Origin: Desulfuromonadales bacterium
Lineage (GTDB): Bacteria > Desulfobacterota > Desulfuromonadia > Desulfuromonadales > BM103
DNA length: 64,000 nucleotides
Assembly: GCA_014860225.1 (NCBI GenBank)
Contig: JACZKE010000030.1
Coordinates: forward strand, 1-64,000
Direction of reading: 5' to 3'
Numbering within the stretch: the stretch's first letter is position 1; every line of letters begins with the position of its first letter. Positions 54,557 through 63,490 of the stretch are shown piece by piece. A program made the translations under genes and the position numbers. A model generated the notes under the pieces. The model was given only the letters and a program-made list of their open reading frames with translations. It had not been told where the DNA came from and ran no database searches.

Positions 54557-55687
54557 TTAAAGAAAAGGGAGAATCAGGCGATTAAAGAGGAGCCAGCCGG
54601 AAGGTGTCAAAGACCAGCGGCCATCGTCATTAACCAGCCATTGAGCGCTGGCGGCAACCGCTTCAGGAAAAGCGTCCTGAAGAGTGCAGCCGAAATGTTG
54701 CAGCAGTTCGGTGTCGGCAATGCCGTGCCGGGTACGCAGGCCCAGATAAATGGTTTCAGACAACGCGGATTGGCGGTCAAACGTTTCAAGGCATTTCATC
54801 GGTTCCTGCCCGTCGAGCAGTGCTTGGCGATAAGCTGACAGGTCGGCCGGGACTTCCCAGCGACTGCCCCATTGGCTGTCGAAAAAAGAATGCGCTCCGG
54901 CACCTATGCCGAGGTAGGGGCGGCGTTGCCAATAGCCGAGATTGTGACGACAGGTATAGCCGTCGCGGGCATAGTTGGCGATTTCGTAATGTTCGTAGCC
55001 GGCTGTGGCCAGTTGTTCATGAATCAACATGAACGCATCAGCGTAGAACTCCCCGTCCGGCAGCGCCAGCTCACCTGAGGCGACTCTTTGTTGAAATGGC
55101 GTCTCCGGCTCAGCGGTCAGCCCATAGCAGGAAAGATGTTCGGGAGCGAGTTCGAGGTAGCGACAAAGATCATCTTCAAGGTCGCGAAGCGTTTGATCTG
55201 GCAGGGCAAACATCAAGTCAAGCGAGAGGTTGTCAAAGCCTGCCTCACGGGCCCAGTTGCAGGCATCAATCCCACCCTGGCGATTATGCAGGCGGCCAAG
55301 CAGGGTCAGCTGGTCGTTACTGCAGGTCTGCAGACCGAGGGAGAGGCGGTTGACACCGGCGTTACGATAACCGTTCAAGCTGTTCAGAGAAACAGTGCCC
55401 GGGTTGGCTTCGAGCGTGATCTCTGCGTTTATTGACAGATCAAAGGTCTGGTCGACGGTTTGAAGGATTCTTGCAATTGCCGTTGGCTCGAGCAGGGAAG
55501 GCGTCCCGCCACCAAAGTAGATTGTGTCGATCGGCTGAATCTCGCGGTGTTCGGCAGCCCAGGTAAGGTGCCGTTCGAGATAGCTCGGGTAATCAGAGAT
55601 GGTCGCTGCACAGACTTCTCTGGAATAGAAGTCGCAATAGGGACATTTTTGCCGGCAAAAAGGGATGTGCAGATAAAGACCGGCCAT
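54557..55687 (-). CDS. hemW: Radical SAM HemW (coproporphyrinogen III oxidase-like)
   Basis: 376-aa radical SAM protein of the HemW family. The CxxxCxxC cluster site is in HIPFCRQKCPYCDFYS, with the GGGTPSLL (SAM) motif and the HemN_C-type ending (GLRTRHGIADTELLQHFG). HemW is considered a haem chaperone or oxygen-independent coproporphyrinogen oxidase relative. It ends about 35 nt before the heat-shock promoter. Confidence 0.9.
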   Translation of the reverse strand: MAGLYLHIPFCRQKCPYCDFYSREVCAATISDYPSYLERHLTWAAEHREIQPIDTIYFGGGTPSLLEPTAIARILQTVDQTFDLSINAEITLEANPGTVSLNSLNGYRNAGVNRLSLGLQTCSNDQLTLLGRLHNRQGGIDACNWAREAGFDNLSLDLMFALPDQTLRDLEDDLCRYLELAPEHLSCYGLTAEPETPFQQRVASGELALPDGEFYADAFMLIHEQLATAGYEHYEIANYARDGYTCRHNLGYWQRRPYLGIGAGAHSFFDSQWGSRWEVPADLSAYRQALLDGQEPMKCLETFDRQSALSETIYLGLRTRHGIADTELLQHFGCTLQDAFPEAVAASAQWLVNDDGRWSLTPSGWLLFNRLILPFL

Positions 55688-55712: not shown

Positions 55713-57494
55713 TTACATGAGGAACAGGAGCATGGATGTCAGGGCAAGAATCAAGACAGCCAGAAGAACGCCGATTCCAACAGGATAGGACGCAGTGCGG
55801 CTGCGGATGGAAATTTTCCTGATAGTTTGCTCATGCTGGCCCTCGATGCCGCTGGTTTCGACCAAAAGCCGGTAGCCATGCTTCTGCAAGTTTGCGCCCG
55901 GGTCTTCGAAGAACTGGGCCAGCAGACTGGTAAATTGCTGGGCGAAGGTCCGATTGGCCCACTCGTTGATGCCATCGAAAGCCCATCGGCTGAAACGGTA
56001 AATCTGGCGACAGCCCTTGCGGTAAATCCAGTCGGCGTCAACATTGATTGATCGGATTTCTGCTGGATAGATTCCTGCGAGCAGCAGCAGGGTAAAGGCC
56101 AGTGCTGAGAAGAAGAGTAGCTGGGTCTGTGCCAGCACATGACTGGTTGTGTAGGGCTGGTAGTCGATGGTGTAAGGCAGCAAGCTGTATAGATATTGCG
56201 GGAAACACCCGATCAGGATACAGAGTGCTGCCGAGATGCCCATGGCCAGCAACATATGCGGAGGAGCCTCTTTGCAACGGATGCCGGAGTCGTGGGAGAA
56301 GAAGGCGAAAAACGGGATCTTGATGCCGGCATGATGGAAGACCCCTGCCGAGGCGAAGAGCAGGATAAACCAGACCCAGCGCATCTCACCGAGAGCTGCC
56401 GCCTCCATGACCATCGATTTGCTGACGAAGCCGGAAAAGAGCGGAAAGGCTGAGATCGAAGCAGCTCCGACAATACAGAAAGCGCAGGTCCAGGGCATCG
56501 ATTTGTAAAGACCGCCGAGATCGGTGGCGTTAATTTTGCCGGTGCGGTACATAACTGCGCCCATGGTCATGAAGAGCAGCCCTTTAAAGAGGATGTCATT
56601 AAAAGCATGGGCAATGGCGCCGTTAATGGAAAGGGCCGTGCCGATACCGATACCGACCACCATGAAGCCGACCTGGTTGATCAGGCTGTAGGCGAGAACC
56701 CGGCGCAGGTCATTTTCGATAACGGCATAAAAGATCGGGAAAGCCGCCATGGTGGCGCCAATGAAGATCAACTCCTCGGTGCCGGGAAATGCTCTGGCCA
56801 GAGCGTAGATCGCTGTTTTCGTGGTGAAGGCTGAGAGGAAAACCGTGCCGGTAATAGTTGCTTCAGGGTAGGCATCGGTCAGCCAGGGATGCAGTACCGG
56901 CCAGGCACAGTTGACGCCGATGCCGATGAATATCAACCAGGATGCGATTGTTCCCAGTCCAATCAGGTCAAAGGCCGCTGAACCAGTCTGGGAGACGTGC
57001 ATGATGATGCCGGCCAGCAGACAGAGGCCGCCGGCTACGTGGACCATAAAGTAGCGGAACCCGGCGCCGAGTGCCCGTTCGGTACGGCGTGCCAGGATCA
57101 GGAAGGTGGCGCTGATCGTCAGCAGTTCCCAGAAGACAAACAAGGTGAACATGTCACCAGCGAAGATTGCGCCAAGAGCCGCCCCGGCGTAAACGGTACC
57201 GGCGACGTTCTGCACGGTATCATCGACGTGCAGGGCATAGATTGCCGAGAGGAAGGCGATGAGATGGAAAATATAGCCGAAAATCAAGCTCAACTTGTCG
57301 ACTCGGCCGAGTACGATCTGGTCGCTCAGGAACGGCAAGATCCAGTGGCTGCCGACCGGAATCTGCAGCAGGTTGATGAAGCTGATCACCGGCAGCAGCA
57401 GCAACAGGGCCTGGCGGGCCCGACCCTTGAAGAGCGGTACCAGCAGCCCGCCGAGAATCATGATCAGTGCCGGCGGCAGGGCGTTAATCATCAT
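55713..57494 (-). CDS. NuoL/MrpA-type antiporter-like subunit
   Basis: 593-aa membrane protein of the proton-conducting transporter family (NuoL/MrpD-like). Helix motifs include FVFWELLTISATFLILA (with the ion-path Glu), IGATMAAFPIFYAVIENDLRRVLAYSLINQVG and DILFKGLLFMTMGAVMYRTG with the conserved Lys. A long extra C-terminal region (from about 470) ends in a single hydrophobic helix, as in NuoL's lateral helix. Third antiporter-type protein of the operon. Start at MM (57494) overlaps the previous gene by 11 nt. Confidence 0.85.
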   Translation of the reverse strand: MMINALPPALIMILGGLLVPLFKGRARQALLLLLPVISFINLLQIPVGSHWILPFLSDQIVLGRVDKLSLIFGYIFHLIAFLSAIYALHVDDTVQNVAGTVYAGAALGAIFAGDMFTLFVFWELLTISATFLILARRTERALGAGFRYFMVHVAGGLCLLAGIIMHVSQTGSAAFDLIGLGTIASWLIFIGIGVNCAWPVLHPWLTDAYPEATITGTVFLSAFTTKTAIYALARAFPGTEELIFIGATMAAFPIFYAVIENDLRRVLAYSLINQVGFMVVGIGIGTALSINGAIAHAFNDILFKGLLFMTMGAVMYRTGKINATDLGGLYKSMPWTCAFCIVGAASISAFPLFSGFVSKSMVMEAAALGEMRWVWFILLFASAGVFHHAGIKIPFFAFFSHDSGIRCKEAPPHMLLAMGISAALCILIGCFPQYLYSLLPYTIDYQPYTTSHVLAQTQLLFFSALAFTLLLLAGIYPAEIRSINVDADWIYRKGCRQIYRFSRWAFDGINEWANRTFAQQFTSLLAQFFEDPGANLQKHGYRLLVETSGIEGQHEQTIRKISIRSRTASYPVGIGVLLAVLILALTSMLLFLM

Positions 57495-57777
57495 AGTGAT
57501 CCTCTTTGCGCATGACCATTGGCCGCAGTACATATTTCGCCACGATGACCAGAATGACACAGGCGACAAAGCCGTAAACCGCGTAGAAACCGAAGTAGCC
57601 TTCCCAGGCGAAGATGGCATGTTTGTGATAGAAGATGTCGACGACCAGGAGTAGGACCACGCAGGTGTAGAATATTCTCAGCAGGCGCTTGACGTTCTCA
57701 GGCTTGTCAAACATTCCCAACTCTTCGTCTATGTCTATTGGTGGTTTTTCGTCTATGTCTATCGGTAGTTGGGACAT
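57484..57777 (-). CDS. Small membrane protein of Mrp-like operon, with IDIDE repeat
   Basis: 97-aa protein. An acidic N-terminus has PIDIDE twice in tandem (from a repeated GTCTATGTCTAT segment), followed by two helices (LLRIFYTCVVLLLVVDIFY and AVYGFVACVILVIVAKYVL). AAGGAG precedes ATG 57777. No family recognised; position suggests an accessory subunit of the complex. Confidence 0.7.
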   Translation of the reverse strand: MSQLPIDIDEKPPIDIDEELGMFDKPENVKRLLRIFYTCVVLLLVVDIFYHKHAIFAWEGYFGFYAVYGFVACVILVIVAKYVLRPMVMRKEDHYDD

Positions 57778-57787
57778 CCGTTGCTCC

Positions 57788-57943
57788 TTACCAGGTCCGC
57801 CAGAAGACAAAGGCCAGATAGAAAATGCCTATAGTGATGCAGATATAAAAGATCGGCCGGTAGCCTTTTACCGCGTCGTGGGAGAGGACCATCGGGCCGT
57901 CTTCTGACTGGCCATGAGTGTTGTTTTGTTCGTCGGCTTTCAT
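57788..57943 (-). CDS. Small single-span membrane protein of Mrp-like operon
   Basis: 51-aa protein: polar N-terminus with KADEQNNTHGQSEDG, one C-terminal helix (FYICITIGIFYLAFVFW). ATG 57943 chosen over longer frames. It lies 10 nt before the 97-aa gene and after the antiporter gene. Function unknown. Confidence 0.6.
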   Translation of the reverse strand: MKADEQNNTHGQSEDGPMVLSHDAVKGYRPIFYICITIGIFYLAFVFWRTW

Positions 57944-57986
57944 CTTGTATACTCTCTTGTTCCAGAAACTTAAAGCCATCGAAAGG

Positions 57987-59453
57987 TCAGATGCCAAGGG
58001 CCATGCGTGCCAGTTTCAGCAGCGTGTCGGGATAGAAAAACAGGGCCAGCGAAACAAGGGCCGTCACCGAAAGTGGTATCAGACAGAAGAGCGGTGCTTC
58101 TTTGATGCCATCGCCTTCACCGTCCGTTGCAGGTACAAAAAAACCGCGATAGATAATCGGGAAGAAATAGGCGGCATTCAGCAGGGAGCTGATCAGCAGA
58201 ACGACAATCAGCACCAGTTGGTCACCCTCAACGGCGCCGATCAGCAGATTCCATTTGCTGATGAAGCCGCCAAGTGGCGGCATGCCTATGATACTCAGGG
58301 AACCGAGGAAAAAGGCCAGATAGGTGATCGGCATACGCCGCCCGAGACCGTCCATCTGGCTGATATTTTTTTTCTTGCTGGCGACGTAGATCGCCCCGGC
58401 ACAAAAGAACAGCGTGATCTTGCCAAAGGCGTGCATCGCCAGGTGCATGACTCCACCAAGCATGCCGGTTGCCGAGAGCATGCCGGCGCCGAGCACCATG
58501 TAGGCAAGCTGGCCGATGGTCGAATAGGCCAACCGGCGTTTCAGGCTGTCTTGTGTCAAGGCCACCATGGATGCGATCAACAAAGTCACCGAAGCGATAT
58601 ACGTGATCAACGAACCGAGGTCGGCAGACTGTAGCGTCTCAGGTCCGAGGATGTCAAAGATGATCCGGAAGATTGAGAAGACTCCGGCCTTGACCACGGC
58701 CACGCCATGCAGGAAAGAGCTGACGGGCGTTGGCGCCACCATTGCTGCAGGCAGCCAGCCATGAAACGGCATCAATCCCGCCTTGGCAAAACCAAACAAA
58801 AAGAGCACCACCAGCAGTGCCAGCAATTCCGGAGAGGCCTTGCCTGCCAGGATGCCGCCAGAGGTAAAGTCGAGAGTTCCGGCCACAGAATAGGTGATCA
58901 TCATGGCCGGCAAGGCCAGGCCGATGGATGTGCCGAGAATGTAAGTCAGATACTTGCGTCCCGAGGAGCGGGCTTCAGCATTCTGCTCATGGGTGACCAG
59001 TGGGTAGGTTGAGAGTGACAGCATCTCGTAGAAGAGATACATGGTCAGCAGGTTGCCGGCAAAGGCGACACCCAGGGTGGCCGAGATGGCCACGGCAAAC
59101 GAGGCATAATACCGGGTCTGGGCGTGCTCGTCGAGCGCTCGCATGTAACCGATTGAATAGATCGAGGTAAACAGCCAGAGACTGGAGGCCACCAGGGCAA
59201 AGATCATTCCCAGGGCATCGACGCGCAGTTCGATCGGCACGCCCGGGATAACCTGGGCAATGGTGAAGACGTAGCTGTTGCCCTCCAGAACCCCCGGCAG
59301 CAGCGAGGCAACAATCATCAGCTTGACCAGGGCGATCAGGATGGTCCAGCTCTCGCGCAGGTTTGGCTGCCGATTAGCAAGGATAATCGGCAAGGCTCCC
59401 AGCAGGGAGACAAGAATTGCGGCCAGCGGCCAGATGGAAACAATCGGTGTCAT
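57987..59453 (-). CDS. NuoM/MrpD-type antiporter-like subunit
   Basis: 488-aa proton-conducting transporter with fourteen helices. Ion-path motifs LLTMYLFYEMLSLSTYPLVTHE, GLMPFHGWLPAAMVAPTPVSSFLHGVAVVKAGVF and QDSLKRRLAYSTIGQLAYMVLG are present. Second antiporter subunit in the operon; 53-nt gap to the upstream gene. Confidence 0.88.
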   Translation of the reverse strand: MTPIVSIWPLAAILVSLLGALPIILANRQPNLRESWTILIALVKLMIVASLLPGVLEGNSYVFTIAQVIPGVPIELRVDALGMIFALVASSLWLFTSIYSIGYMRALDEHAQTRYYASFAVAISATLGVAFAGNLLTMYLFYEMLSLSTYPLVTHEQNAEARSSGRKYLTYILGTSIGLALPAMMITYSVAGTLDFTSGGILAGKASPELLALLVVLFLFGFAKAGLMPFHGWLPAAMVAPTPVSSFLHGVAVVKAGVFSIFRIIFDILGPETLQSADLGSLITYIASVTLLIASMVALTQDSLKRRLAYSTIGQLAYMVLGAGMLSATGMLGGVMHLAMHAFGKITLFFCAGAIYVASKKKNISQMDGLGRRMPITYLAFFLGSLSIIGMPPLGGFISKWNLLIGAVEGDQLVLIVVLLISSLLNAAYFFPIIYRGFFVPATDGEGDGIKEAPLFCLIPLSVTALVSLALFFYPDTLLKLARMALGI

Positions 59454-59506
59454 ATTTCTCTCAAAACGGGTTCTGGACAGAGTTGCCCGAATCCATCAAG
59501 TCGTAG

Positions 59507-60994
59507 TTAAAAACCGACCGGTATCATTAATCGGATGATATTGTTAACCAGGGGCCCGGTGCTTAAGCCAACCACAATCAGGAGTACAGCGGTCAGGGCC
59601 AGAGGACTGAGTATCCACCATGGCGCCTCTTGCGGTTCAGCGCTTGCATGTGCATGGTGCTCGCTGTCTTGCAGAGAACCAAAATATGCCAGCTCGATAA
59701 TCCGGAAGAAGAGGACGGCGTTGACCAGGCTACTGAAGATCAGAGCGACGACAAATTCCCACTGGCCTGCTTCGATGCCACCGAGAAGCAGATACCACTT
59801 GCTGTAAAAGCCGCAGGTCGGTGGCACCCCGATCATAGCGAAAGCACCTATTGTGAAGAACGCCATAGTCCAGGGCATCCGGCGGTAAAGGCCTTTCAAG
59901 TTGTCGAAGTGGAGACTGCCGGTACGATATGCAATGGCGACGGCGGCCAGGAACAGACAAAGAGTCATCAGCGCGTCGTTGACGATATGCAGCAGGGTTC
60001 CTGTCATGCCCTGATCGTTGGCCAGCCAGGCGCCGCCGACCATGTAACCGACCTCGGCGATGATGATGTAGGTCAGCATCTGTTTAAGGTTGCGCTGCGC
60101 CAGTGCCAGTGATGATGCGCAAACAATGCCGATCGCCGCAGCCCATATAACAAGAGTGCGGACATCCATACTGATCAGTGGGAATGTCGGTGATTGAAAG
60201 GTGAGCATCAGGCGAACCATCAGATAGATGGTCACCTTGGTCATCAGCGGTGCGATGAGCACCCCGGCTCCGTCTGGTGCATCTGTGTAGGCTCTCGGCA
60301 GCCAACCGTGCAGGGGGAAAAAGGCCATCTTGATCCACAGGCCGATCAGGATGAAAGCCAGGGCGGTTGACAAGGCGGCAGTTCCCTGCAGGGCCGGCAG
60401 GTAACGGGCGATGTCGGCCATGTTGAGAGTGCCGGTCAGCAGATAGAGATAGCCGACTCCGAGCAGATAGAAGGAGGCTGCCACCGAACCCATGATGATG
60501 TAGTTGAAGCTCGACAGTGGTGCCCGCCCGCGGCCCAGAGCGATCAGGCCATAGGTGGTGATCGAGGTAATCTCGAGCATGACGTAGAGGTTGAAGGCAT
60601 CGGCGGTCAACACCAGCCCCATCAATCCGGCGATCAGAATCAGATAAAGCGTGAAGAAGAGATGTTGCCGATCTTCCAGGTCGCGCTTGACGCAGGGCAG
60701 GGCGGCGAAGGTGGCGATGAAGGAGACTGCGGCGATGAGCAGCAGCATTAACGCCGAAAGTGGATCGACCAGCAGTTCGATCCCCCATGGCGGAGTCCAG
60801 GCTCCCGCGGTATAGCTCAGGTCACCGAGCATAAGTGTCCGTTTGAGCACGGCAATCGCCAACAGGCTCGAAAGCCCCAGAGCCCCCAACACCATCGGTG
60901 CAATGACCTTGCGGTTATTGCGGCCGAATATGTTGACCAGGAAGGCGGTCAACAACGGCGCCGCCATCACATACATGTGCAGGTTGGATTTCAT
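59507..60994 (-). CDS. NuoN/MrpD-type antiporter-like subunit
   Basis: 495-aa transporter. Has VLTADAFNLYVMLEITSITTYGLIALG, MAFFPLHGWLPRAYTDAPDGAGVLIAPLMTKV and QRNLKQMLTYIIIAEVGYMVGG. First antiporter subunit, overlapping MrpC by 4 nt. Confidence 0.88.
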   Translation of the reverse strand: MKSNLHMYVMAAPLLTAFLVNIFGRNNRKVIAPMVLGALGLSSLLAIAVLKRTLMLGDLSYTAGAWTPPWGIELLVDPLSALMLLLIAAVSFIATFAALPCVKRDLEDRQHLFFTLYLILIAGLMGLVLTADAFNLYVMLEITSITTYGLIALGRGRAPLSSFNYIIMGSVAASFYLLGVGYLYLLTGTLNMADIARYLPALQGTAALSTALAFILIGLWIKMAFFPLHGWLPRAYTDAPDGAGVLIAPLMTKVTIYLMVRLMLTFQSPTFPLISMDVRTLVIWAAAIGIVCASSLALAQRNLKQMLTYIIIAEVGYMVGGAWLANDQGMTGTLLHIVNDALMTLCLFLAAVAIAYRTGSLHFDNLKGLYRRMPWTMAFFTIGAFAMIGVPPTCGFYSKWYLLLGGIEAGQWEFVVALIFSSLVNAVLFFRIIELAYFGSLQDSEHHAHASAEPQEAPWWILSPLALTAVLLIVVGLSTGPLVNNIIRLMIPVGF

Positions 60995-61383
60995 TCGTTC
61001 TCAATCTTGTGCAGGATTTCGTCTTCTTCCAAGGTCCCGTACTTGCGGTAGATACGCTGCATGACCGCCAGGGCGACCCCGGTCACGCTAACCCCGACGA
61101 CGATTGCAGTCAGCATGAGTACGTGGGGCAGGGGGTTGACCACCTGGTTCACATCCACTTGTCCCTGCAGTGCGGCGTACTTATCAAGAATCGGAATGCT
61201 GCCACCCTTCTTTGCCCCGGTAGAGATAAAAAACAGGATGATCGCTGTCTGAAAGATGTTCATGCCGAGCAGTTTCTTGACCAGATTGCGTTTGCCGATC
61301 ATGGCATAAAAGCCGATCATCATCAGGACCACATAGATCCAGTAGTTATACTTGGCGATGACGTGATCCAGTATACTTTCCAT
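60991..61383 (-). CDS. mrpC: MrpC/NuoK-like subunit
   Basis: 130-aa three-helix subunit with IGFYAMIGKRNLVKKLLGMNIFQTAIILFF and PHVLMLTAIVVGVSVTGVALAVMQRIY, the MnhC/MrpC pattern with its charged residues. The gene starts immediately after MrpB and overlaps the next gene. Confidence 0.9.
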   Translation of the reverse strand: MESILDHVIAKYNYWIYVVLMMIGFYAMIGKRNLVKKLLGMNIFQTAIILFFISTGAKKGGSIPILDKYAALQGQVDVNQVVNPLPHVLMLTAIVVGVSVTGVALAVMQRIYRKYGTLEEDEILHKIENE

Positions 61384-61863
61384 TTACAAGCCCTCGTCGA
61401 GGCGGCCGGCAGAGGCCATGTCCCAGTAGATCGAGACCATTATTGTCGTAACTCCCATGCCAACGCCAACCTCGACCAGAAAGATTCCATGGGAATGCCA
61501 GGAGATCGGGTCGATCGGCAGAATTTTTGCGAGCGCGCTGTAATCGAGGAACATCCCGCCAAGCAGCGCACAGAGAGTGGCAATACCCGTGTAGATCAAG
61601 GCACCGGTGTTGGCAAGTATGATGTCCGTGCTTTCCGACAGATAGCGTTTGCTGGCCGGCAAACCAAAGGCAAGAGCGAACAGGATCACCGAAGCGCCGA
61701 GTACAACGCCACCTTGGAAGCCGCCACCCGGACTGTAGTGGCCATGGACGATGACATAAAGACCGTAGAGCTGGATGAAGGGGACCATCAGGCGCACTGT
61801 AGTTTCGAGAATGGTGTCGCGCTGCGGAATTCGATCCCGTGCCTCCTGTAAGCTGATCCTCAT
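61384..61863 (-). CDS. mrpB: MrpB/MnhB subunit
   Basis: 159-aa MnhB-like protein. Typical segments are TVRLMVPFIQLYGLYVIVHGHYSPGGGFQGGVVLGASVILFALAFG, the GHxSPGGGFQGG signature of the family. Four helices. Overlaps the upstream MbhE-like gene by one base. Confidence 0.92.
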   Translation of the reverse strand: MRISLQEARDRIPQRDTILETTVRLMVPFIQLYGLYVIVHGHYSPGGGFQGGVVLGASVILFALAFGLPASKRYLSESTDIILANTGALIYTGIATLCALLGGMFLDYSALAKILPIDPISWHSHGIFLVEVGVGMGVTTIMVSIYWDMASAGRLDEGL

Positions 61864-62135
61864 TAGTCTTCCCTCCGCCTCAGAATGCCCATGACTGCCA
61901 TGCCGGCGCTGTAGATGACCACCAGCTCGAACATGGTGTCGTAGCCCCGGTAATCACCGAGAACGGCAGTGACGATATTCGGCACATGGGTTTCTTTGAC
62001 CGCTTCTTCCACGTAACGCACCGAAATATTGCGGTTGGGCGGCGACTGCGGGTCGCCCCATGCAGCAAAATCAGCGGTACCGTAGAGCAGCAGCGCACCG
62101 GTGATCAGGGTTGCCAGTAAAGCCAGGGGTTTCAA
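61863..62135 (-). CDS. MbhE-like (MrpA C-terminal piece) subunit
   Basis: 90-aa protein. Resembles hydrogenase/antiporter subunit MbhE and the end of MrpA: NISVRYVEEAVKETHVPNIVTAVLGDYRGYDTMFELVVIY. In Mrp of Bacillus this is fused in MrpA; here, as in archaeal Mbh/Mbs, it is a separate gene. Overlaps the next gene. Confidence 0.82.
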   Translation of the reverse strand: MKPLALLATLITGALLLYGTADFAAWGDPQSPPNRNISVRYVEEAVKETHVPNIVTAVLGDYRGYDTMFELVVIYSAGMAVMGILRRRED

Positions 62136-62377
62136 TCTTTACTCCTGCGTGTGGTGCGGAAAATAGCTGAGATAAAAAATATGGTACTGACACCAGCGCC
62201 GACTGTCGCTTCGGTAAAAGCGACGTCGACCGCCCCCATCTCCGCCCAGAGCAGGCACATGAGGAAACTGTAGGCACTGAAGATGATGGTTGCCGAGAGT
62301 AGATCTTTCACGGTGATCGTCGCTACAGCGCAGAAAACCACCAGCAACAGAAGAACCAGGTCGAGTTGCCAGATCAT
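62132..62377 (-). CDS. MbhD/DUF4040-like (MrpA C-terminal piece) subunit
   Basis: 81-aa three-helix protein with VVFCAVATITVKDLLSATIIFSAYSFLMCLLWAEMGAVDVAFTEATVGAGVST, the DUF4040/MbhD core. The AFTEA Glu is the conserved membrane carboxylate. ATG 62377 overlaps MrpG's stop. Confidence 0.82.
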   Translation of the reverse strand: MIWQLDLVLLLLVVFCAVATITVKDLLSATIIFSAYSFLMCLLWAEMGAVDVAFTEATVGAGVSTIFFISAIFRTTRRSKD

Positions 62378-62697
62378 TTGCGCGTCCCCTTCCTCTGCCA
62401 AGGTTCGACACCGACGATCAGAGCGGCCTTGGTGATCGCATGGGTTGCTGTAGGACTGGCCATGAAAATAAAGAAAACAATGAAGAAAACTTTCCAGCTG
62501 ACCAGTATGCTGGCAAAGCTCAGGTCGTGCAGATTGTACAGGGCAATGGCTGACACAGCGAGGGTCGCCGCCAGAGTGTCACACTTGCCGGCAGCATGGA
62601 GCCGTGAATAGAAATCCGGCAGACGCAGGATGCCGATGGTGCCTATGGCAAAAAAGAAGACCCCTGAGACCATGAGTAATGTCACAAGCCAATTCAT
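62374..62697 (-). CDS. mrpG: MrpG subunit
   Basis: 107-aa MnhG/PhaG-like subunit: FFAIGTIGILRLPDFYSRLHAAGKCDTL is the family signature, then two more helices and a basic tail. Four-base overlaps with both neighbours. Confidence 0.9.
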   Translation of the reverse strand: MNWLVTLLMVSGVFFFAIGTIGILRLPDFYSRLHAAGKCDTLAATLAVSAIALYNLHDLSFASILVSWKVFFIVFFIFMASPTATHAITKAALIVGVEPWQRKGTRK

Positions 62698-63005
62698 GCC
62701 GAGGCCTCCTTTTCAATAGCCAGATCATCCTCGAGATGAACCCGCTTGCTGCGTCGGAAGTACTTGCAGGCGCCGATAGTTGCGATGAAATTGAGAAACG
62801 CATAAGCCAGGGCAATGTCGATGAACATCGGCATGTTTTCGTAGATTAAACCGATGAGCAGCAGCAACACGGTCGTTTTGGTGCCGATCATGTTCACGCC
62901 GACAATCCGGTCAAGGACCGTTGGCCCGCCGAGCGCCCGCACCAGGGTGAGAAAGATCAGCATCACCAGGGCCAGGGCAACCGAGAGGAACACCTGACTC
63001 ATCAT
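62694..63005 (-). CDS. mrpF: MrpF subunit
   Basis: 103-aa MrpF-like subunit with LVRALGGPTVLDRIVGVNMIGTKTTVLLLLIG and three helices. A basic region (YFRRSKRVHLED) follows the last helix. Overlaps MrpE by 4 nt. Confidence 0.9.
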   Translation of the reverse strand: MMSQVFLSVALALVMLIFLTLVRALGGPTVLDRIVGVNMIGTKTTVLLLLIGLIYENMPMFIDIALAYAFLNFIATIGACKYFRRSKRVHLEDDLAIEKEASA

Positions 63006-63490
63006 GCTTCCTCCGGTTCCAGAGCACGAGCGATGCGTCTTTCCATTTCACCGGGCAGACTTTCGGCGGCGCTCCTGGTAAGCGCGTAGACCGTCATTTC
63101 ATCATCCTGCAAGCTGACCGTAATGGTACCGGGCGTCAAGGTGATTGACTGGGCAAAGGTCACTCGGGCAAAGTTCGATTTGAGCTTGGTCTTGAAACGG
63201 ATCAACTGCGGTTCCATCTTGTCGAGCATCTGCGGATGCAGAACGATATATGCAACTTGCAGGCTGGACAGCACAATTGCCCACAACAGCCAGGGGAAGT
63301 AGGCGAGCATGCCGAAGATTTGCTTGACCCGCACTTCAACGCGCAGGCCCTCGAACAACATCTCCCCGGAGAAGAGCGCAACCAGCAGACAGCAGATCAC
63401 CCCGAGGGATAGATGAAAGGCATCGAACATACCAGACAGGATGGCCCAGAAACTCAACATGACTGCAAACGTGGCAAGCTTCGCTTTCAT
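63002..63490 (-). CDS. mrpE: MrpE subunit
   Basis: 162-aa MrpE-like protein with two N-terminal helices and a cytoplasmic domain: LLWAIVLSSLQVAYIVLHP, NFARVTFAQSITLTPGTITVSLQDDEMTVYALT. First gene of the operon. Together the genes form an E-F-G-(MbhD)-(MbhE)-B-C-D order, mixing Mrp and Mbh styles. Confidence 0.9.
   Translation of the reverse strand: MKAKLATFAVMLSFWAILSGMFDAFHLSLGVICCLLVALFSGEMLFEGLRVEVRVKQIFGMLAYFPWLLWAIVLSSLQVAYIVLHPQMLDKMEPQLIRFKTKLKSNFARVTFAQSITLTPGTITVSLQDDEMTVYALTRSAAESLPGEMERRIARALEPEEA

Follow-up and report, generated by a model that had tools for sequence, protein, structure and literature searches.

Analysis of a 64,000-nucleotide stretch of Desulfuromonadales DNA (hereafter the window; genome G000, contig C40, positions 1-64000) points to what appears to be an overlooked subunit: a protein of 97 residues, s97, that adjoins the same channel subunit, Lx, in many genomes, also inside respiratory enzymes. 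Together with a smaller neighbor, s51, it makes up the main find of this work, two unnamed protein families encoded within an operon of twelve closely spaced open reading frames (ORFs) that runs from 63490 to 55713 on the minus strand in the order MrpE-F-G, MbhD, MbhE, MrpB, C, D1, D2, s51, s97, Lx. The product of this operon is most likely a sodium/proton exchanger with three channel subunits rather than two.

Pairing of s97 with Lx across genomes

The s97 gene (57484..57777, minus strand; 97 amino acids (aa), two predicted transmembrane (TM) helices) has, by eye, the motif AAGGAG six bases 5' of its ATG. Its constant neighbor Lx (55713..57491, minus strand; 592 aa) is a NuoL/MrpA-like subunit with a predicted lateral helix and with Asn194 at the position of the lysine of TM helix 7 (TM7); its gene probably starts at 57491, giving an overlap of 8 nucleotides (nt) with s97. 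Lx scores 756 bits against the NCBIfam family NF009310 (curated cut-off 564), so this type of subunit is already filed by NCBI as 'Na(+)/H(+) antiporter subunit D'. Searches for Lx with this family are independent of s97. Among 297 genomes of the phylum, 129 contain NF009310 above cut-off and 130 contain a match to the s97 profile at 1e-5. With adjacency defined as an s97 that shares the strand of Lx and lies −60 to 600 nt upstream of it, 147 of the 150 Lx matches listed have s97 directly upstream, and 147 of the 150 s97 matches listed have Lx directly downstream. Two of the exceptional Lx matches lie at contig starts (G331, G264), and for the third (G185) an s97 match exists (2.9e-7) but falls outside the matches listed; the s97 matches without a listed Lx are those of G389, G248, and G295.

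The pairing extends to other samples. All 60 loci taken from the NF009310 list, a subset of the 150 listed Lx matches chosen down the list rather than at random, contain s97 (worst expectation value (E) 1.7e-8), and s97 was matched in 69 of 98 genomes, the window's own included (E up to 0.01). Among 80 loci from named records, found with an Lx alignment and kept from 580 confirmed candidates, s97 adjoins Lx in 76, and the other four have no more than 112 nt of DNA before Lx. These records represent Deltaproteobacteria and Desulfobacterales, Nitrospirae, Gamma- and Alphaproteobacteria, Planctomycetes, Opitutia/Verrucomicrobiales, Gemmatimonadetes, Latescibacteria, and others, as well as two metagenome-assembled genomes (MAGs) labeled archaeal; the commonest s97/Lx spacing among them is the 8-nt overlap also seen in the window (34/76). 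No s97 was found at the four loci of the window's own genome that hold other, ordinary antiporter subunits. Beside Lx, s97 is conserved almost without exception.

The s97 profile comprises 22 loci picked by similarity to the window's s97 and one locus found through Lx. Conserved positions include D47, F64, G69, C73, K81, and an EDYYD-type tail (E92-D93-x-Y95), and helices are predicted at residues 26-50 and 64-93 in a model of low confidence (mean predicted local distance difference test (pLDDT) 71.8, predicted template modeling score (pTM) 0.43). The ratio of nonsynonymous to synonymous substitution rates (dN/dS) of the gene is 0.09-0.17 against three close relatives (L050-L052), indicating purifying selection. 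Neither s97 nor s51 reaches a curated family above cut-off in Pfam or NCBIfam, and a PDB sequence search with the s97 profile returned nine rows, all at E 0.37 or worse, and no PDB relative. Weak family matches among the 23 members scanned were to DUF3561 (Pfam 4/23, best 2.6e-5; NCBIfam 3/23, best 5.8e-5), AzlD (4/23), TMEM132_C (3/23), DUF3302 (1/23), and WD1261 (1/23). The best DUF3561 match, to member L070, reaches 24.7 bits against a cut-off of 25 and covers the membrane stretch only; it is taken as a hydrophobic-segment match, and a distant tie of s97 to DUF3561 is possible. Two divergent Mrp operons (L074 and L076, in G087 and G069) encode a 67-aa variant of s97 without K81 beside an Asn-type Lx.

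The second small protein, s51 (57788..57943, minus strand; 51 aa), taken from the ORF list, adjoins s97 upstream and has one membrane stretch predicted by eye. It occurs in 37 of 80 named loci, 10 of 60 phylum loci, and 10 of the relatives' 27 Mrp loci, and in none of the 23 named loci with a Lys-type Lx. Of 48 matches to its hidden Markov model, 47 fall in the 500 nt upstream of s97; the exception (L162) is 689 nt away, start to start. The s51 gene is likewise under purifying selection relative to L050-L052 (dN/dS 0.24-0.30), as compared with a dN/dS of 0.74 on 46 codons against the more distant L053. By these ratios, s97 and s51 both have the appearance of true coding sequences. A PDB sequence search with the s51 profile returned no rows, and a family scan of eight members recovered none by Pfam and one NCBIfam family in two of the eight, at 0.0017.

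An earlier, sequence-only reading of this DNA had called both small proteins orphans and had named a lack of conservation as grounds for refuting its proposal; the opposite was observed, with s97 found near-invariably beside Lx, and s51 in part of the loci. That reading was right in placing both outside known families. They are not orphans of this operon, since homologs occupy the equivalent position in operons for complex I and in two bd-oxidase-like ones.

Fold, residues, and genomic contexts of Lx

The AlphaFold2 model of Lx (mean pLDDT 85.5) shows an antiporter fold followed by a long helix and a last TM helix, with C-terminal helices at residues 488-529, 531-547, 553-564, and 572-591; pLDDT is lower toward this end (53-74 per ten-residue block over residues 471-590). 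The model supports the lateral helix proposed in the sequence-only reading. In fold alignments, complex I subunit L/ND5, MrpA, and MrpD are jointly the top matches (8e9g_L, Z 45.2, root-mean-square deviation 4.5 over 521 residues; MrpA/MrpD chains, Z 42-44, with Lx beyond residue 531 barely covered by the comparison).

The canonical pair of TM5 glutamate and TM7 lysine is incomplete in the window's Lx, in which Glu122 is kept and Asn194 occupies the lysine column; a profile alignment to the MBS subunit 6u8y_X places the lysine of the latter at the Asn194 column. This asparagine went unmentioned in the sequence-only reading. Across 178 Lx sequences, the position holds Asn in 155 and Lys in 23, with one change on the tree, and all 56 complex-I Lx sequences have Asn. 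Among the named loci, Lx retains the TM5 glutamate (80/80), the TM8 lysine (80/80), and the TM12 lysine (79/80). In the other antiporter-like subunits compared, the TM7 lysine is kept in D1 (27/27), D2 (28/28), D_sm (10/10), NuoM (12/12), and NuoN (12/12). Within the window, Asp stands at the TM11 histidine column in both Lx and D1. The proposition that Asn is universal at the TM7 position of Lx, true for the first 38 sequences, was refuted by the Lys found in 23 of the 80 named loci. In a tree with outgroups, made from a 77-sequence subset, the Lys clade is nested and reversion is thus favored, with one of the two basal branches having a support of only 0.65.

Forty regions were fetched, four from the window's own genome and 36 from relatives, all 36 of the latter picked for an s97 match. 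The relatives' loci comprise 27 Mrp operons, with the window's gene order as far as readable, and nine complex-I operons with the order A-B-C-D-...-J-K-D-s97-Lx-M-N, while the 60 loci from the NF009310 list comprise 42 complex-I and 18 Mrp operons. Additionally, in L103:3626-14723 and L128:5758-14596 (a Nitrospirae MAG and a gammaproteobacterial MAG), the neighbor of D2-s51-s97-Lx is a protein that combines a cytochrome c domain with one of cytochrome bd oxidase subunit I, both clusters containing further cytochromes c. Pairs of s97 and Lx without D2 on that strand occur in L109:9637-11755, L093:9745-11773, and as a second copy in L101:12966-15141, the last of these sitting after a full Mrp operon; all have Asn at TM7. 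L152:837-3124, with just 1.3 kb of upstream DNA, is probably another such pair, also with Asn at TM7.

On the Lx tree, 155 labeled tips require seven changes between Mrp and complex-I contexts, as compared with at least 37 in 200 shuffles; a context label is absent for 23 of the 178 loci, mostly at contig ends. The tree indicates that Lx is mostly inherited with its machine, yet has moved several times. As side observations, the Mrp operon L217 (G255:C13) carries two successive s97-Lx pairs, and lookalikes of cyclic-nucleotide-binding regulators, recognized by eye and with no search, lie downstream of Lx in L101:11804-12865, L088:2162-2644, and L135:2860-3408.

Layout of the operon

All twelve ORFs are present on the minus strand in the gene order that the sequence-only reading had given. 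Upstream of the small genes these are MrpE (63002..63490; 162 aa; PF01899), MrpF (62694..63005; 103 aa; PF04066), MrpG (62374..62697; 107 aa; PF03334), an MbhD-like subunit (62132..62377; PF13244), an MbhE-like subunit (61863..62135; 90 aa; PF20501), MrpB (61384..61863; 159 aa; PF04039), an MrpC/NuoK-like subunit (60991..61383; 130 aa; PF00420), and the antiporter-like subunits D1 (59507..60994; 495 aa) and D2 (57987..59453; 488 aa). The MbhD ORF is listed from 62401, and comparison with relatives, where 16 of 23 MbhD ORFs have the same length, probably places its start at the second possible position, 62377 (81 aa). Pfam confirmed all eight known parts submitted (E, F, G, MbhD, MbhE, B, C, and Lx). 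Proton_antipo_M is above cut-off in D1, D2 (PF00361 in both), and Lx, in keeping with the three antiporter-like subunits proposed from the sequence. In NCBIfam, the best family for D2 is NF006236, just short of its cut-off (642 against 663 bits), and that for D1 is NF009305, far short (331 against 700); the two halves of NF009159 are matched, below its cut-off, by MbhD and MbhE.

The operon unites subunits E, F, G, B, C, and D, as in Mrp-type (CPA3) antiporters. All parts of MrpA are there as well (NuoL-like, MbhD, and MbhE), spread over three genes as the sequence-only reading had recognized, rather than joined in the one long polypeptide of group 1 Mrp; in contrast, the canonical Mrp of the same genome (L048) has an unsplit MrpA-like ORF of 731 aa. 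Neither the ORF list nor Pfam revealed a catalytic module of the MBH/MBS/MBX kind among the operon's ORFs, consistent with the earlier statement that it holds no hydrogenase or ferredoxin module. In place of the earlier label of a hybrid Mrp/Mbh operon, a better description is that of an Mrp whose MrpA is split and whose distal cassette is portable.

The genes flanking the operon are HemW-like and nitrilase-like in appearance (by eye, no search). The HemW-like radical SAM gene follows Lx on the same strand (54557-55687 of the window), and one also lies ahead of s97-Lx in L093:8163-9281, which may be chance. Elsewhere in the same genome, L046 and L047 are two operons with NuoL, M, and N-type genes among other nuo genes, and L049 (G000:C31:40000-58000) is an operon, probably of hydrogenase type, with two L-like genes, one D-like, one NuoD-like, and one NuoB-like gene.

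Proposed function, alternatives, and known systems

We consider it probable that the twelve genes together specify a single secondary cation/proton antiporter of the Mrp type (CPA3), with a portable distal cassette and with s97 as the obligate partner of Lx, a reading that builds on the gene content and order, conservation, two-way s97-Lx linkage, repeated change of context, and residue pattern observed above. Members of the Mrp family are secondary antiporters powered by the proton motive force. The Mrp form would accordingly need no redox partner to exchange H+ for a monovalent cation, which family precedent suggests to be Na+. Next to MrpE, F, G, B, MbhD, MbhE, and C, the complex would have three antiporter-like subunits in a row, D1, D2, and Lx, the last being the distal NuoL/MrpA-like unit, whose lateral helix would run back across its neighbors. 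Since Lx lacks the TM7 lysine, D1 and D2 are expected to carry most of the transport, and Lx would act partly as distal cap and coupling strut, which is the least certain step. We infer that s97 and s51 are structural subunits: s97 would be an obligate two-helix partner that holds Lx in the complex, most likely beside Lx at the D2-Lx junction or beneath the lateral helix, and s51 an optional one-helix neighbor at the same site. In this reading, D2-(s51)-s97-Lx is a portable module that has been swapped several times between Mrp antiporters and complex-I-type machines.

By the positive-inside rule of membrane topology, both ends of s97 are predicted to be cytoplasmic. The MrpA lateral helix lies on the cytoplasmic side according to a published account (PMC9568556), and the placement of s97 close to that helix or to the D2-Lx junction derives solely from this shared side. 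Several points weigh against the proposed antiporter. Both the binding site and the stoichiometry of s97 are conjectural, and its model is of low confidence (pTM 0.43). The s97-Lx pairs without D2 imply that s97 cannot be only a D2-Lx clamp, and no s51 is present in 43 of the 80 named loci and in 17 of the relatives' 27 Mrp loci. The Glu/Lys pair is called strictly conserved in MrpA and MrpD in the accessible text on Bacillus pseudofirmus Mrp (PMC9568556), and a second source reports that the substitutions K223A in MrpA and K219A in MrpD each leave a complex that forms but has lost antiport (PMC5703873); Lx lacks this lysine and may thus do something other than canonical antiport.

The leading alternative, which we nevertheless regard as unlikely, is that s97 (and s51) serve specifically to assemble Lx or insert it into the membrane and are not stoichiometric subunits. 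A chaperone role for s97 would also fit strict pairing with one subunit and overlapping genes, and a few s97-Lx pairs stand alone. However, wherever neighbors are readable s97 sits among structural genes, right before Lx, and its two helices with conserved residues and conserved acidic tail resemble an embedded subunit; both arguments are circumstantial.

The sequence-only reading had left the driving partner of the operon open, a formulation that presumes a redox partner, whereas Mrp works as a secondary antiporter and every one of its subunit types is encoded here. It seems to us improbable that the complex is redox driven through the docking of a catalytic module whose genes lie at another place in the genome. 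The cassette does occur in redox machines elsewhere (complex I, bd-like oxidase), and NuoB- and NuoD-like genes are found in further operons of the same genome, although these have antiporter subunits of their own. The window's operon contains the full set of Mrp accessory subunit types, and none of 98 Mrp-labeled loci has a NuoA-, B-, C-, or D-like ORF on the Lx strand, in a comparison whose reference set is without NuoH and NuoI. The second ground for refutation named in the sequence-only reading, a catalytic module known elsewhere for this operon type, applies only in part, as such modules accompany the cassette but not the Mrp operon; a redox partner as a requirement was rejected on the presence of all Mrp subunit types.

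About equally improbable is a split site, in which D2-(s51)-s97-Lx would be an ion-translocation cassette of antiporters, complex I, and bd-like oxidases, with K81 in TM2 of s97 functionally replacing the missing TM7 lysine of Lx in trans. In the 173 of 178 loci compared, 147 of the 152 s97 proteins that accompany an Asn-type Lx carry K or R at position 81, as compared with 12 of 21 partners of Lys-type Lx. Four of eight inferred changes fall in the Lys-type clade, which accounts for 11.5% of tree length (binomial p 0.008, uncorrected), and K81 is the sole column with p below 0.05 among ten conserved s97 columns tested. This pattern suggests a trade-off with the Lx lysine; however, it was noticed post hoc, and correction for ten columns yields a borderline p of ~0.08. 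Additionally, K81 lies toward the end of TM2 that is predicted to be cytoplasmic, while the lysine of TM7 is buried in the Lx core; a basic residue is kept in those 12 of 21 Lys-type partners; and it is missing beside Asn-type Lx in L074, L076, L128, L146, and L220. The idea that the small ORFs are chance or lineage-specific decoration, which their lack of a curated family above cut-off and of a PDB relative might invite, has a negligible probability and was rejected as noise on the near one-to-one s97-Lx linkage across the phylum and named genomes of several phyla and on purifying selection on both genes against close relatives, the position of 47 of 48 s51 matches just upstream of s97 also counting against it.

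If s97 is a true subunit, as the favored antiporter reading holds, then a common form of both the Mrp antiporter and complex I has been described without one of its parts, overlooked because the gene is short and annotated as hypothetical. The Asn-type Lx constitutes a natural experiment on the role of the TM7 lysine in complex I and its relatives, and the repeated changes of context show antiporter modules passing between respiratory enzymes and a secondary transporter. In the literature searched, neither the conserved small subunits nor the one-to-one s97-Lx pairing nor the TM7 Asn was found described, key older complex I papers being outside its coverage.

The three-antiporter Mrp operon itself is already noted in earlier work: in the group 3 Mrp of 'Ca. 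Nitrospira alkalitolerans', according to the available part of its description, NuoM- and NuoL-like genes follow mrpD and were judged extra mrpA/mrpD-like genes (PMC7784846). This arrangement corresponds to D1-D2-Lx, and the same part of that description includes no small gene (PMC7784846). The window's operon shares subunit types E, F, G, B, C, and D with canonical Mrp (6z16, 7d3u, 7qru) but differs in its MrpA split over Lx, MbhD, and MbhE, its third antiporter subunit, s51 and s97, and the absence of a TM7 lysine in Lx. Archaeal MBH/MBS (6cfw, 6u8y) likewise have separate MbhD and MbhE, and their antiporter subunits are the best PDB sequence matches of Lx; in contrast to these, the window's operon has no hydrogenase or sulfane reductase module and has three antiporter subunits.

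Pairs of MrpD-like subunits are also described for 'Ca. Manganitrophaceae', in Complex_I_3 and in the bd-like oxidase cluster TO_2 (PMC9040806). As far as the available text of that description goes, the oxidase-type operons L103 and L128, with D2, s51, s97, and Lx, resemble the TO_2 cluster, and no small subunit is given for either complex (PMC9040806). In green complex I, two MrpD-like subunits replace NuoL, as set out in the accessible portions of two accounts (PMC9040806, PMC7415380). The complex-I operons in which s97 accompanies Lx are of this 'green' type. The likeness to the window's operon lies in the pair of a D-family subunit and Lx; however, green complex I is a redox enzyme with Nuo subunits, and in their place the window's operon has the accessory subunits of Mrp, Pfam having detected no complex I catalytic or connecting subunits there. 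On plasmid pB of Sinorhizobium meliloti, the second operon for complex I, which we infer to be a green complex I, encodes NuoJ, NuoK, a D-family protein, an 84-aa 'hypothetical protein', an Lx homolog, NuoM, NuoN, and NuoA-G, and thus has D and Lx in the same order as D2 and Lx in the window; its 84-aa protein aligns with s97 over 76 positions at 38% identity (E 3e-16).

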